DNA from: Prochlorococcus marinus XMU1408
Lineage (GTDB): Bacteria > Cyanobacteriota > Cyanobacteriia > PCC-6307 > Cyanobiaceae
Length of the DNA: 64,000 nt
Direction of reading: 5' to 3'
NCBI RefSeq assembly: GCF_003208055.1
Contig: NZ_QJUE01000002.1
Span: 620,001 to 684,000 of the forward strand
The notes under the pieces: model-generated
The model's database searches: none
What the model was told of the DNA's origin: nothing
Seen by the model: the letters and a program-made list of their open reading frames with translations, nothing else
Shown here: positions 38,101-59,426 of the stretch, in pieces
Numbering within the stretch: position 1 is the stretch's first letter
Layout: every line of letters starts with the position of its first letter
Translations under genes and position numbers: made by a program

Positions 38101-38119
38101 ATTCTATTAATAATAGAAT
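38101..38119. repeat. Perfect palindrome overlapping a start codon
   Basis: ATTCTATTA and TAATAGAAT are perfect inverted copies around a single central A. The last two bases of the second arm are the A and T of the proposed start ATG at 38118. In mRNA the arms could fold only with a small loop at the cost of central pairs. As DNA it is a 19-bp dyad that could be an operator. Confidence 0.5.
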
Positions 38120-39389
38120 GTGCAAAAAAATAATAAATAGAGAAATTAATAATATAATATCTAAAAATAAGCAATCAAAAAATATAAACGATTCAGTTAA
38201 AGACCTTACTCACCTTAATACATATACCATTGACGAATCTCATACTATTGAAATAGATGACGCAATTTCAATAGAAAGAAAATCTGATCACTATAAATTG
38301 TGGGTTCATATTGCATCGCCTACTTCATATATTGAATATCAATCAGCTATTGATATGAAAGCTAGGCAACTTATTTCAACTTTGTATTTATCAACTAATA
38401 CTTTATACATGCTTCCTAAAGTTTTGATTAACAGTATCTTCAGTCTAAGTGATAAAGAAAAGAGAGTTTCAATAAGCCTAGGTGTTATTTTTAATGAAGA
38501 CGGTAGTATTAAATCATCAGAAATTGTACAGAGTTTAATAAAAGTAAACTATCAATTAGATTACGAAGAAGCAGATGAACTTATAGATTATGCACCTAAA
38601 GAAGAAGAAGATTTAAGTATTATATCAACTATTTTACAAAAGAGAAACTGTTGGCGGAGAAATTTAGGGGCCATTGAAATTCTCGAACCATATGGAAAAA
38701 TTATTGTTAATACTAACATTCCCAAGATTAAAATAATAGAGCCAACTATATCAAGACAATTAATAAGTGAAGCAATGATTTTATATGGAAATATAATTTC
38801 AGTTTTTACTGAAAATAATAAAATACCTGTTCCCTATAGAGTGCAACAATGTACTAATCAAGCTATTACAAATAATATTAAGAATTCGGAAGATAATGTT
38901 CTATATAATTTTTTACTAAAGAAAACAATGGGTAAGTCATATTATTCCATAAACCCACTGCCTCACTATAGTCTCGGGCTAATATATTATTTACATGCTA
39001 CATCCCCTATTAGAAGATATGCAGACTTAATAGTTCATTATCAATTAAATCGCTTTCTTAATAATAAAGCTCTAATATCTGAAGAGGAAATATATAAAAT
39101 TATAATAGATATAAATAATTTAAGTAAACAAAATATAATGAGATATAGAGAAGATCAAAAAATATGGCTTAATAAGTGGTTCGAAATTAACACGTTAATG
39201 GATTATCAAGTCACATTATTAAATTGGATAAATAGATATAAGGATATTTGTATTTTGTACTTTATTGAATATAAATTTTCTTCTATATGTAAATTGAAAT
39301 CAAAGACACATATAAAAGTCGGTGATAAATTTAACGTCAAAAATATAACTCAAAATTATAATGATATTATTTATTTTCAATTAATTTGA
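38118..39389 (+). CDS. RNase II/R family exoribonuclease, minimal catalytic form
   Basis: RNB-domain 3'-5' exoribonuclease of 423 aa from ATG 38118. The frame is open to 38052, but that would overlap rpsR. The metal site is recognisable as IDESHTIEIDDA (residues 38-49), with the plant/cyanobacterial Glu replacing one Asp. YLSTNTLYMLPKVLINSIFSLS and the later HATSPIRRYADLIVHYQLNRF match the catalytic core and RNA-binding arginines. There is no room for N-terminal cold-shock domains, and only a short C-terminal tail, so this is essentially the catalytic domain alone. It is in the rpmG-rpsR cluster. Contrast with the RNB homologue at 56508, whose site is lost. Confidence 0.88.
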   Translation: MCKKIINREINNIISKNKQSKNINDSVKDLTHLNTYTIDESHTIEIDDAISIERKSDHYKLWVHIASPTSYIEYQSAIDMKARQLISTLYLSTNTLYMLPKVLINSIFSLSDKEKRVSISLGVIFNEDGSIKSSEIVQSLIKVNYQLDYEEADELIDYAPKEEEDLSIISTILQKRNCWRRNLGAIEILEPYGKIIVNTNIPKIKIIEPTISRQLISEAMILYGNIISVFTENNKIPVPYRVQQCTNQAITNNIKNSEDNVLYNFLLKKTMGKSYYSINPLPHYSLGLIYYLHATSPIRRYADLIVHYQLNRFLNNKALISEEEIYKIIIDINNLSKQNIMRYREDQKIWLNKWFEINTLMDYQVTLLNWINRYKDICILYFIEYKFSSICKLKSKTHIKVGDKFNVKNITQNYNDIIYFQLI

Positions 39390-55572: not shown

Positions 55573-55770
55573 ATTATGAATAGGCAACAAGAAGAAAACT
55601 ACGCTGATGGAATGATCTTTTGATTTTCGTCAAGTATATTCTTCAGACCTCTATAAATGAATTTTAGGGTATGCTGGATAAATTCACAACTTGATTATTT
55701 AGATGTTTTTTATATAAGATATATATTGTTCAAACATAACTGTAAAGATAACATCAGTCCTTCGGAAGTA

Positions 55771-56124
55771 ATGGGTCAACCTAATTCAAATTCTAATAAT
55801 AAGATTAGTGACCAAAAGGATTCATCAACTTTTATCAGTATATTAATTACTTCATTTAGTACAATTTTTCTTGCAGAGTTAGGAGATAAGACACAGCTAG
55901 CGACTCTAATGCTTTCAGCTCAGTCGGGAAGACCAATAATTATTTTTATAGGTGCTGGTCTTGCCCTTATCTCAACTAGTCTGATTGGTGTACTACTTGG
56001 ACAATGGATAGCAAATAATTTTCCAAGACAACGATTTACAGTTGTATCAGGGATAATTATGTTAAGTTTAGGATTATACCTAGTATCACAAGGTTTTATA
56101 GAATTTCTAAAAGTTAGAAATTGA
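55771..56124 (+). CDS. UPF0016 (GDT1/Mnx) cation transporter, first half
   Basis: 117 aa from ATG 55771. The frame extends 38 codons upstream but lacks family similarity there. Three membrane helices and the signature FLAELGDKTQLATLML (residues about 35-50), which forms one side of the cation pathway. In the single-chain family this motif occurs twice. Here each half is its own gene, so the active transporter is probably a heterodimer with the next product. Cyanobacterial relatives export Mn2+ (Mnx). The N-terminal 25 residues are polar. Confidence 0.87.
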   Translation: MGQPNSNSNNKISDQKDSSTFISILITSFSTIFLAELGDKTQLATLMLSAQSGRPIIIFIGAGLALISTSLIGVLLGQWIANNFPRQRFTVVSGIIMLSLGLYLVSQGFIEFLKVRN

Positions 56125-56132
56125 ATTAATTT

Positions 56133-56426
56133 ATGCTACTCACGCTCCTTTTTACAACTTTTTTCACAGTTTTTCTGGCTGAGATGGGAGACAAAACTCA
56201 GTTAACAACAATAACTTTAAGTAGTACAACCAATAAACCAATAGCGGTATTTATTGGATCGTCAATTGCTCTTATTTTGGCTACCCTTTTAGGAGCATTG
56301 GCTGGCGGCTCAATAGCTAGCTTAATACCTGCTTTCTTGTTAAAACTGCTTTCTGGGATAGTATTCTTAATTCTAGGGATTAAACTTCTTGCACAAAGCA
56401 GTAAAGAAACTACTAGTGAAAGCTAG
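56133..56426 (+). CDS. UPF0016 (GDT1/Mnx) cation transporter, second half
   Basis: 97 aa, three membrane helices with the second signature FLAEMGDKTQLTTITLS (about 14-30). It starts 8 bp after the first half ends, in another frame. Equal copies of E-x-GDKTQ in the two products support pairing. Likely manganese or calcium/proton exchange in the plasma or thylakoid membrane; the metal is inferred from the family. Confidence 0.87.
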   Translation: MLLTLLFTTFFTVFLAEMGDKTQLTTITLSSTTNKPIAVFIGSSIALILATLLGALAGGSIASLIPAFLLKLLSGIVFLILGIKLLAQSSKETTSES

Positions 56427-56507: not shown

Positions 56508-58817
56508 ATGACTACAGTTTCAAAGATACTAGAAAATCTTGAAAAAGAAGATGGATTAGAAGTACCTAGACTAGAAAAGTCTTTGAAACTTTCAAGAAAA
56601 ATTGATAGAGATAATTTAGAGATAGCAATCAAAGCTCTAACAAAACTTGGAATAGTTAAAAGCATTGAAAATGAGAAGTTAGTTATCAATAAAGAAATTG
56701 ATTTTGTTCGAGGTAGAGTTCGTTGCAGTAGTAAAGGCTATTGTTTTGTTGTTAGAGAAGATGAGGGTGAAGACATTTATATTAGAGAAACAAATTTAAA
56801 TAATGCCTGGCATGGAGATTCTGTTATTGTATTAATTACAAAAGAGGCTCTTAAGAGAAGAGCCCCTGAAGGTTCAATACAATGTGTTTTACAAAGATAT
56901 AATGAGACCTTGTTGGCAAAGATTGAAAAGGATAATGCTAATGGAAATTTAAAAGCTTATCCATTGGATGACAGGATACCTGCAATTATTGATGTTGAAG
57001 ATGGTGAAGAAATTATTACTAATTTATCGAATAAAGATTTTATTTATGAAATAGAAATAAGTAAATATCCAATCGCTCAATTTAAAGCAATAGGAAAAAT
57101 TATTAGAGAATTTCCATTAAATGCAGGAGTCGAAGGTGATGTTGATATATTACTTTCGAAAAATAATATTTCTAGAAATATTGATCCTCCAAAAGTATCT
57201 CCTAAAAAAATTCAATTAAAAGGCAGAGAGGACTTGACATGCCAACCCTCCTTGTTATTTAGCAGTTGGGAATGCAAAAATTCTCCATCTTTACCCGCAT
57301 TATTTGCTCAACCTTATGAAGGTGGAAATAGAATATGGATTCATTCTCCTAGCGTATCAGAAAGGTTAAATATTGGAGGTAAATTGGACAAATATCTCAT
57401 GGATAAAGGTGAAGCAATATGTTTAGGAAATAATTGGCTTGAGTTCTTAAATGAAACATTAGTTTCAGCATCTGCCTTCAAACTTAATGAAGAACGTGAA
57501 GCTATTTCTTTAATGATTGATATAGATAGCAAAGGTATAGTAATTGATTGGAAGTTTTCACTAAGCATCATTAAACCTGTAAAAGAAGTGACAGATAAGC
57601 ATTTACAAACTATTAATAATAGAAAAGCAACATCCAAATCTATACCAATTGCACTTAAATCATTAAAAGAAAATCTAGAAGTTATTTACACTATTATTCA
57701 TTCATCAAAACTAATTAATCAGATAAATAATAGTTCTATTAAATTAGATCAGCATATTCCCAATTTAGAAAGGCTAAGTGAATTACAAAAAGCTTTTCCA
57801 AGCAGAGACTTTCATGGATGGACAAAATCATATGACAGCTGTGATCCGCAATCAATATTAGATATATATATCAGATTATCAAATAATATTCTTGCTAAAC
57901 ATTTATATGAATATAAGCTACCTTTTATATTTAAAGAACATGAAGGAATTGAACAATCATCTATAAACGAGCTAACCAAATCAGCCTTAGTACTTGATAG
58001 TGACATAACAGTGAAATTAGACGGATCACAATCTGCAAACGATTTAATAAAATCATTCGACTCTAGCTCTGAAAAGAAAATCCTTCATAAATTAGTAAAA
58101 CATATTATACCTGGTATTCATTTAAAACTTTTTAATCACGCTGATAGTATTAATTATGATGAATTAAATAAAAAGTCATTCATTAGTAATGTTGAATCTC
58201 CGTGGTGCTGTCCATCATTAAATTATTGGAATATATTTAATCAATTTATTATCAGTTTGCTATTAAATGATGGTAAAAGTAAAAATTCTAGTAGAAGTAA
58301 AGATTCCGTAAATTTAGGTCAGAAAGATAGTTGGAAAGATGTCTCATGGAAAATTTTTAGTTCTAAAATCAATGAAATTATTGAGAAGCAAGCAAATTTA
58401 AAATTAATACAACATTTAAATGATAGAAGGAAACAATCAAAATCTTTTAGGAACAATATTATTTCAATAGCACAAGGAAGAGAAGCTCAAAAAATTATTG
58501 GTAAAGAAGTACCAGCTATTATTACTGGCGTCCAAAGCTATGGTTTTTTTGCAGAAATAAACGAGTTAACTTCAGAAGGGTTAGTTCATGTAAGCACTCT
58601 TGGTGATGATTGGTACGAATACAGGTCACGACAAAACCTTTTAATTGGACGTAAAAATAAAAAGACTTATCAACTTGCACAAAAAATAAATGTTAGAGTT
58701 TTAAAAGTTGACATCTTAAAAAATCAAATTGATTTAGAATTGATCAAAAATGAAGATAGTGATTTAATTAATAATAAGAAAATGACTAGTGAAAATAGAT
58801 CTGATGATAAAGAATAA
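56508..58817 (+). CDS. RNase II/R-family (Zam-like) protein with degenerate RNB active site
   Basis: 769 aa. N-terminal winged-helix-like segment (1-60), a cold-shock OB fold (VRGRVRCSSKGYCFVV, about 65-130), a long RNB-like region (about 235-610) and a C-terminal S1 domain (665-745, GKEVPAIITGVQSYGFFAEI). The fold continues through WIHSPSVSERL (equivalent of WVHIADVS), but the Asp motif (normally IDPxxAxDxDDA) is replaced by LPALFAQPYEGG and the SPxRRYxDL stretch by SPWCCPSLNYW. The catalytic acidic residues and key Arg appear lost. It resembles the cyanobacterial Zam (acetazolamide-resistance) family. Perhaps an RNA-binding regulator. ubiX begins directly after its stop. Confidence 0.82.
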   Translation: MTTVSKILENLEKEDGLEVPRLEKSLKLSRKIDRDNLEIAIKALTKLGIVKSIENEKLVINKEIDFVRGRVRCSSKGYCFVVREDEGEDIYIRETNLNNAWHGDSVIVLITKEALKRRAPEGSIQCVLQRYNETLLAKIEKDNANGNLKAYPLDDRIPAIIDVEDGEEIITNLSNKDFIYEIEISKYPIAQFKAIGKIIREFPLNAGVEGDVDILLSKNNISRNIDPPKVSPKKIQLKGREDLTCQPSLLFSSWECKNSPSLPALFAQPYEGGNRIWIHSPSVSERLNIGGKLDKYLMDKGEAICLGNNWLEFLNETLVSASAFKLNEEREAISLMIDIDSKGIVIDWKFSLSIIKPVKEVTDKHLQTINNRKATSKSIPIALKSLKENLEVIYTIIHSSKLINQINNSSIKLDQHIPNLERLSELQKAFPSRDFHGWTKSYDSCDPQSILDIYIRLSNNILAKHLYEYKLPFIFKEHEGIEQSSINELTKSALVLDSDITVKLDGSQSANDLIKSFDSSSEKKILHKLVKHIIPGIHLKLFNHADSINYDELNKKSFISNVESPWCCPSLNYWNIFNQFIISLLLNDGKSKNSSRSKDSVNLGQKDSWKDVSWKIFSSKINEIIEKQANLKLIQHLNDRRKQSKSFRNNIISIAQGREAQKIIGKEVPAIITGVQSYGFFAEINELTSEGLVHVSTLGDDWYEYRSRQNLLIGRKNKKTYQLAQKINVRVLKVDILKNQIDLELIKNEDSDLINNKKMTSENRSDDKE

Positions 58818-59426
58818 ATGAAGAGAATAGTTATTGCTATTACAGGTGCCTCTGCTATGCAATTAGGAGAAAGATCTATACAATTATTATTAGAAAATGA
58901 TAAATCTGTAGATTTAATATTAAGTAAAGGTGCATACGAAGTTGCAAAAAGTGAGCGTAATATCAATATCCCTGTGGAACCAAAGGCTCAATCTGAATTC
59001 TGGAGAAATAAACTTCGTGTTGAATCAGGTGATTTGAATTGTTATAGATGGAATGATCATTCAGCTTCTATTGCTAGTGGAAGTCATAAAACAAAGGGTA
59101 TGGTAATTGTTCCTTGTTCAATGGGAACGTTGGGACGTATAGCATCAGGTTTTTCATTAGATTTAATAGAGAGATGTGCCGATGTCCATCTTAAGGAAAA
59201 TAGACCATTAATTATTTCTCCAAGAGAATCTCCTTTTAATTTAATTCATATAGAAAATATTAAGCGAGTGGCAACTGCTGGAGCTATCATTGTCCCACCA
59301 ATACCAGCTTGGTATACCAACCCAAAATCCATTGAAGATATAATTGATTTTATAGTTGTAAGACTTTTTGATTCTTTAGGTGAAGATTTAGATAATATAA
59401 AAAGATGGGTAGGTCCAAATAAATGA
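58818..59426 (+). CDS. ubiX: Flavin prenyltransferase UbiX
   Basis: 202 aa. Makes prenylated FMN, the cofactor of UbiD-type decarboxylases (in cyanobacteria, plastoquinone synthesis). ITGASAMQLGERSIQLL is the FMN-binding start, VIVPCSMGTLGRIASG and PLIISPRESPFNLIH are the conserved active-site stretches. Its ATG is directly adjacent to the stop of the Zam-like gene, and its end overlaps the next gene by four bases, so all three are probably one operon. Confidence 0.93.
   Translation: MKRIVIAITGASAMQLGERSIQLLLENDKSVDLILSKGAYEVAKSERNINIPVEPKAQSEFWRNKLRVESGDLNCYRWNDHSASIASGSHKTKGMVIVPCSMGTLGRIASGFSLDLIERCADVHLKENRPLIISPRESPFNLIHIENIKRVATAGAIIVPPIPAWYTNPKSIEDIIDFIVVRLFDSLGEDLDNIKRWVGPNK

Follow-up and report, generated by a model that had tools for sequence, protein, structure and literature searches.

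The window analysed here, a 64,000-nucleotide stretch of DNA from Prochlorococcus marinus XMU1408, encodes two proteins of the RNase II/R family, Zam and Rnb. Sequence alignment and structure modelling showed that Zam has kept the architecture and fold of RNase R while the catalytic residues are gone, and that Cyanobiaceae Zam proteins retain the RNB domain but carry a new, conserved sequence where the active site used to be. That Zam is a pseudonuclease with a degenerate site is already known, having been described in 2022 for other cyanobacteria (PMC9145284), so the window protein, an orthologue, is ordinary as a discovery. What is new is the graded erosion of the site, the conservation of the residues that replaced it, a companion Rnb that is trimmed rather than bare, and a widespread pairing of zam with ubiX.

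Identification and architecture of Zam

The zam open reading frame starts with ATG, ends with TAA and lies in a genome of 1.80 Mb. Its features are:

56508-58817, plus strand: zam, RNase R-like pseudonuclease of 769 residues (open reading frame, Pfam, alignments and tree; published family, PMC9145284)
56508-56693, plus strand: putative N-terminal winged-helix-like region, residues 1-62 (helices and strands of the model; residues from 15 onward aligned to the RNase R N-terminus)
56712-56882, plus strand: first cold-shock domain (CSD1, OB_RNB in Pfam), residues 69-125 (Pfam, 65.0 bits)
57225-58268, plus strand: RNB domain without catalytic residues, residues 240-587 (Pfam, 112.9 bits; RNase R fold)
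58497-58739, plus strand: S1 domain, residues 664-744 (Pfam, 35.4 bits)
57246-57308, plus strand: PSLLFSSWECKNSPSLPALFA in place of the four-Asp metal motif, residues 247-267 (alignment)
57420-57422, plus strand: Cys305, which occupies the Tyr253 column (58 of 63 Cyanobiaceae Zam)
58197-58244, plus strand: SPWCCPSLNYWNIFNQ in place of the SPxRRYxDL stretch, residues 564-579 (alignment)
56724-56726, plus strand: Cys73, first of the published redox pair (177 of 182 Zam; function from PMC9145284)
56742-56744, plus strand: Cys79, second of the published redox pair (177 of 182 Zam; function from PMC9145284)
56883-56885, plus strand: Cys126, a third cysteine confined in our sample to the Cyanobiaceae (63 of 63 Zam there, 0 of 119 elsewhere)

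The RNB score compares with a Pfam cut-off of 29.3 bits, while the second cold-shock domain, CSD2, scored slightly below its cut-off (25.8 versus 26.2 bits). With CSD2 0.4 bit short in Pfam, and with the structure model, the protein has the domain order CSD1-CSD2-RNB-S1. In the model (mean predicted local distance difference test score, pLDDT, 88.7) residues 67-746 aligned with RNase R (7dcy) over 608 residues, with a Z of 35.3 and a root mean square deviation (rmsd) of 3.9 Å, and the top sequence relatives in the PDB were likewise RNase R. The score against the RNase R equivalog TIGR02063 was 182.1 bits, far from the cut-off of 597.85. In a tree of 134 proteins (FastTree, LG+gamma) the window protein fell inside the Zam clade, apart from all Rnb; with midpoint rooting, E. 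coli RNase R and RNase II were both on the Rnb side of the root, and the tree presented in PMC9145284 groups Zam with RNase R. The closest named relatives found were 14 Prochlorococcus records with 64-74% identity. Membership of the Zam clade, the RNase R architecture and fold and the low RNase R score together identify the protein as the Prochlorococcus orthologue of Zam.

Loss of the catalytic site

In an alignment with RNase II and RNase R of E. coli K-12, the columns of Asp201, Asp207, Asp209 and Asp210 were occupied in Zam by Ser, Pro, Leu and Pro, that of Tyr253 by Cys and that of Arg500 by Leu, the assignment of columns across the eroded stretch being alignment-dependent. The TSPIRRYPDL stretch of the E. 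coli enzymes had become SPWCCPSLNYWNI. The combination taken to mark an active RNase R or RNase II, four Asp (one of which may be Glu) and Arg500, is therefore lacking. As a control, all 88 Rnb-type proteins in the same alignment had D201, D or E at 207, D209, D210, Y253 and R500.

Eight columns of the RNB domain were at least 90% Asp or Glu in Cyanobiaceae Zam and none of them lay in either former motif, so that the sequence gives no hint of compensation. A cysteine-rich metal site made of C305, C567 and C568 (present in 58, 49 and 45 of 63 proteins, respectively) was considered and rejected, each cysteine being missing in several genera; an obligatory cysteine metal site in Zam is, from these sequences, unlikely.

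Conservation of the replacement residues

Conservation was assessed in 63 Cyanobiaceae Zam proteins, an uneven sample in which the window protein and its nearest kin account for 22. In the former metal motif W254 (61 of 63), P260 (63) and L262 (62) were near-invariant, as were P565 (60), W566 (61), N578 (63) and Q579 (63) in the former SPxRRYxDL stretch. The two former motifs, which make up 37 of the 348 RNB positions, held seven of the 26 columns conserved at 95% or more (7 of 37 inside versus 19 of 311 outside; one-sided Fisher P = 0.013, with motif borders that were set post hoc, after the alignment had been viewed). The near-invariance of these residues argues that the loss of the site was not mere drift.

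The first-pass annotation of the window had described the four-Asp motif and the SPxRRYxDL stretch as replaced by unrelated residues between intact RNA-binding ends. The replacement and the retention of RNA-binding-type ends were borne out by Pfam and by the controlled alignment with the E. coli enzymes, and the compensating acids that it had considered as possible occupants of the metal site were absent at the sequence level. The arbitrariness of the new residues did not hold, several of them being near-invariant.

The fraction of columns at least 90% identical was 44% in CSD1 (residues 63-125), 50% in S1 (residues 661-746) and 14% in the RNB domain; conservation in Zam is thus highest in CSD1 and S1. 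The CSD1 residues that we matched to the RNA contacts given in PMC9145284 were nearly universal in the wider sample (R72 in 182, K76 in 180 and F80 in 180 of 182 Zam), and both redox cysteines occurred together in 174 of the 182, including the window protein.

Graded erosion across cyanobacteria

The wider survey covered 182 distinct Zam proteins from 40 families, designated by f-numbers. A complete site was found in none of the 182 and an acid at the Asp207 column in none; Asp207 was thus lost in all 40 sampled families. D201, D209, D210 and R500 were retained in 36 proteins (30 from f5, five from f40 and one from f8), and in f40 the metal loop had canonical spacing with Asp207 alone changed. 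A further 12 retained D209 and D210 with R500, 56 had no acid at any of the four Asp positions and no R500, and the others were mixed. Among the 63 Cyanobiaceae Zam, D209 or D210 occurred in none and D or E at the 201 column in 17. By sequence, then, the erosion of the Zam active site is graded across cyanobacteria. The view put forward in PMC9145284 that Zam has no canonical site agrees with this result, though in 36 proteins, of the four Asp and Arg500, Asp207 alone is missing.

The order of the losses depends on the tree. The less eroded Zam families were nested in an RpoB tree of 31 genomes that had many weak nodes, and Dollo parsimony by hand on this weakly supported tree gave eight losses of the 209/210 Asp pair. 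In the midpoint-rooted Zam protein tree the least eroded Zam were at the base of the clade, which would require fewer losses.

A Zam match was found in 120 of the 121 Cyanobiaceae genomes, the exception (G186) being 94% complete. Outside the family, both f50 genomes tested (G333 and G341, with loci L259 and L261) gave Rnb-type matches only and Zam was not found; the same was seen in the fragmented assemblies G305 and G262. If the absence from f50 is real, Zam is not universal in cyanobacteria. Within the zam coding sequence a terminator-like hairpin of ten pairs was noted on the minus strand (56843-56867).

The companion RNB protein

In the second protein, Rnb, the active site is intact, Glu taking the place of Asp207. 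Its features are:

38118-39389, plus strand: rnb, 423 residues, active site intact, N-terminal part of full-length Rnb missing (alignment, Pfam and model)
38232-38261, plus strand: rnb metal motif D39..E45.D47D48 (alignment)
39186-39386, plus strand: C-terminal OB/S1-like barrel of Rnb, residues 357-423 (model and VIA-align)

No RNA-binding domain was found by Pfam in the window Rnb. The model (mean pLDDT 92.6), however, has a beta barrel at its end (about residues 357-423), and this barrel aligned up to its final residue with the C-terminal region of known RNase II/R structures (2r7d and RNase R). The earlier description of a minimal RNB protein with an intact motif and no RNA-binding domains was therefore correct for the motif and for the N-terminus and mistaken for the C-terminus. 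The two small open reading frames before rnb are presumably rpmG and rpsR, and the one after it metG.

Among the 121 Cyanobiaceae genomes, 119 had an Rnb match among those listed, 80 in frames of at least 675 residues (675-737, stop to stop) and 39 in frames of 502 residues or fewer. Of the short ones, 30 belonged to 11 Prochlorococcus-like genera and seven to genus g78, and two (G152 and G191) appeared broken or at a contig edge. By the tree, the N-terminal loss in g78 (L147 and L148) was separate from that in the Prochlorococcus-like genera; the g78 genomes are small and fragmented. Genus g5 retains full-length Rnb, and the one g5 genome tested had few phycobilisome matches, as in Prochlorococcus. 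The small genomes of both trimmed lineages suggest that trimming follows genome reduction.

In a full-length Rnb of family f7 (L191) Pfam clearly placed CSD_RNase_II, wH_RNase_II and HTH_RNase_II before the RNB domain, and the same N-terminal domains were weak or unrecognised in full-length Cyanobiaceae Rnb (L145, L146, L077 and L073); the part lost in Prochlorococcus was accordingly defined by length and by sequence match to the N-terminus, not by domain hits. A split gene was considered as the source of the missing part and rejected, a separate copy being found in none of eight trimmed genomes, whereas all five full-length genomes were matched; one of these positives is the query's own genome and the other four matched at 32-36% identity, so a highly diverged copy could escape. 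Third RNB proteins with intact sites were also seen in families f6, f9, f10, f13 and f22 (L171, L173-L177, L181, L182 and L204), and those included in the tree formed a clade of their own.

Most family genomes with a match (80 of 119) have a long Rnb, yet D209 and D210 are absent from all 63 Cyanobiaceae Zam, which implies that the Zam site was lost before Rnb was trimmed.

Neighbouring genes

The genes that flank zam are:

58818-59426, plus strand: ubiX, flavin prenyltransferase, with its ATG directly after the zam stop (TIGR00421, 184.4 bits, cut-off 108.9)
55657-56124 and 56133-56426, plus strand: two tandem single-domain GDT1 genes upstream of zam (Pfam GDT1, 81.2 and 79.8 bits)

The TAA of zam (58815-58817) abuts the ATG of ubiX at 58818. 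The first-pass annotation had called the two genes co-transcribed, and the abutment makes a joint transcript a plausible prediction. When the count was limited to zam loci with 650 or more bases available downstream, 46 of 50 in the Cyanobiaceae had ubiX next, in the same orientation, and 22 of the 36 families tested had one or more such loci; the family totals were summed by hand. The pairing is not obligatory, since four g2 genomes (G245, G180, G101 and G202) kept Zam and had one flavoprotein match each, in a frame of 429-431 residues that is CoaBC-type by length, and a stand-alone UbiX was not seen in these four. UbiX produces the prenyl-flavin cofactor of UbiD-type decarboxylases. A tie of UbiX to plastoquinone, and through it a functional link to a redox-controlled Zam, is speculation; a literature search returned no paper joining zam with ubiX in cyanobacteria. 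Of 50 Cyanobiaceae loci, 49 had GDT1 upstream of zam; it was not observed at that position in other families, where often fewer than 800 bases of upstream sequence were covered. A promoter scan was uninformative (29 found versus 26.5 expected).

Possible function of Zam

Zam is Sll1910 of Synechocystis PCC 6803 and A1543 of PCC 7002 (Thomas et al. 2022, PMC9145284). A redox mobility shift and an acetazolamide and pigment phenotype are described there for the proteins of PCC 7002 and PCC 6803, and in PCC 7002 changing either Cys to Ser phenocopied the deletion of zam (PMC9145284). The purified protein, which was aggregation-prone, is stated to have had no nuclease activity (data not shown there), and the authors stress that Zam active sites are poorly conserved and highly degenerate and propose a redox-controlled activation of RNase E (PMC9145284). 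The same article identifies Anabaena Alr1240 as Zam, and a review relates that Alr1240 binds RNase E and enhances its cleavage (PMC10989914). RNase E is encoded in the window genome (PF10150, 311 bits).

Taking this literature with the present results, we lean towards the view that Zam is a pseudonuclease that binds RNA under redox control, modulates RNase E and does not lend its RNA-binding domains to Rnb. Zam would bind RNA, RNase E or both through CSD1 and S1; the photosynthetic redox state would set the Cys73-Cys79 pair as disulfide or thiols, the state of the pair would switch binding, and RNA turnover by RNase E would thereby track the redox state. Zam itself would cut no RNA and would supply no RNA-binding domains to the trimmed Rnb. 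The first-pass annotation had also proposed an RNA-binding pseudonuclease; site loss and retained domains agree with this reading, which was already in print (PMC9145284), and RNA binding is a prediction. Its further idea of a coupled division of labour with Rnb is not supported.

Several observations weigh against this proposal, 1) its redox and RNase E steps are drawn from literature on cyanobacteria other than Prochlorococcus, 2) purified Zam, an aggregation-prone protein, is reported on data not shown to have failed to bind any RNA offered (PMC9145284), 3) Alr1240 is said in the review to degrade unstructured RNA (PMC10989914), which contradicts a dead enzyme if Alr1240 is Zam, 4) with three of the four Asp and Arg500 present in 36 Zam, 'dead' may not hold family-wide, 5) eight of 182 Zam (four from Cyanobiaceae and four others, with both f18 proteins lacking both cysteines) are without one or both members of the pair, so the redox switch is not universal, and 6) the conservation figures rest on an uneven sample, 22 of the 63 proteins being the window Zam and its nearest kin.

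Zam may instead act alone, as an mRNA-binding regulator resembling yeast Ssd1, through the outer cold-shock face and without RNase E. Ssd1 belongs to the same family, lost its active site in the same manner and conserves its CSDs, and its structure (7am1) matched the Zam model with a Z of 29.4 over 611 residues, lower than the Z for RNase R. The funnel of Ssd1 is described as blocked, with RNA taken up at an alternative site (PMC8934651), and fungi are reported to have lost the active site no fewer than four times while retaining the second function (PMC8097288). The failure of purified Zam to bind RNA (PMC9145284), the RNase E binding reported for Alr1240 (PMC10989914) and an S1 domain at least as constrained as CSD1 make independent action of this kind unlikely. 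A purely protein-binding redox sensor, in which the fold is retained for protein contacts only, would fit the conserved Cys pair and the same lack of RNA binding in vitro, but the conservation of the mapped RNA-contact residues of CSD1 and the RNase E link of Alr1240 (PMC10989914) make it very improbable.

It is likewise improbable that some or all Zam cut RNA slowly with the remaining site acids. The 36 proteins that retain D201, D209, D210 and R500, the canonically spaced f40 loop and the reported activity of Alr1240 (PMC10989914) are in its favour, but the window Zam lost all four Asp positions and R500, its former motifs hold no conserved acid, and an Asp209-to-Asn change in RNase II is reported to abolish activity (PMC3293843). 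Finally, Zam could serve the trimmed Rnb in trans as its RNA-binding partner; both are encoded in the window, and the missing N-terminal part of Rnb was not recovered elsewhere in the eight trimmed genomes tested. However, the Zam site is gone in genera with full-length Rnb, Rnb retains its C-terminal barrel, and trimming occurred in two separate lineages, both with small genomes. As Zam lost its site first, the two losses do not form a coupled division of labour, and such a partnership seems extremely improbable.

Apart from its partner, the general role of Zam is unlikely to be phycocyanin synthesis alone, since Zam is kept in the window genome with only two phycobilisome-family matches, versus 13 in a control genome (G133). 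A broader picture, which we offer as a tentative possibility below our preferred proposal of a redox-gated modulator of RNase E, is that Zam is a bacterial counterpart of Ssd1. A redox-gated function of CSD1 and S1 would have been fixed early and followed by repeated, stepwise decay of the site, f5, f8 and f40 perhaps still having two functions, and in marine picocyanobacteria the dead site would have been rebuilt as a conserved pocket lined with Trp, Pro and Cys and given a new role. If the rebuilt pocket is real, possible roles are ligand, redox or partner binding. The natural intermediates in f5, f8 and f40 could help to settle the conflict between the reports of an inactive Zam in PCC 7002 and of an active Alr1240 in Anabaena.

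Comparison with known systems

The window Zam resembles the proteins of PCC 6803 and PCC 7002 described in PMC9145284 in architecture, in its degenerate site and in its presence beside Rnb, and the numbering of Cys73 and Cys79 is identical to that given for PCC 7002 Zam (PMC9145284). Relative to the published Zam, the Cyanobiaceae proteins have the conserved new motif sequence and the invariant Cys126. Domain order and fold are common to Zam and to E. coli RNase R and RNase II, whereas the four Asp, Tyr253 and Arg500 of these enzymes are lacking in the window Zam. The window Rnb shares the RNB domain and C-terminal barrel of the Deinococcus radiodurans RNase II-family protein (2r7d; Z 42.4, rmsd 2.3 Å, 392 residues) but is only 23% identical to it, and the N-terminus of Prochlorococcus Rnb is short and helical.

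Yeast Ssd1 and the fungal Dis3L2 pseudonucleases, as described in PMC8934651 and PMC8097288, are also RNB-family pseudonucleases with conserved CSDs and an eroded site. Ssd1 differs in its descent from Dis3L2 and in the insertions of CSD1 and S1 that block the funnel (PMC8934651, PMC8097288), while Zam is placed with RNase R by the published tree and carries a redox Cys pair in CSD1. Judging from these accounts, fungal Ssd1 is the closest model for how a Zam-type protein can work (PMC8934651, PMC8097288).

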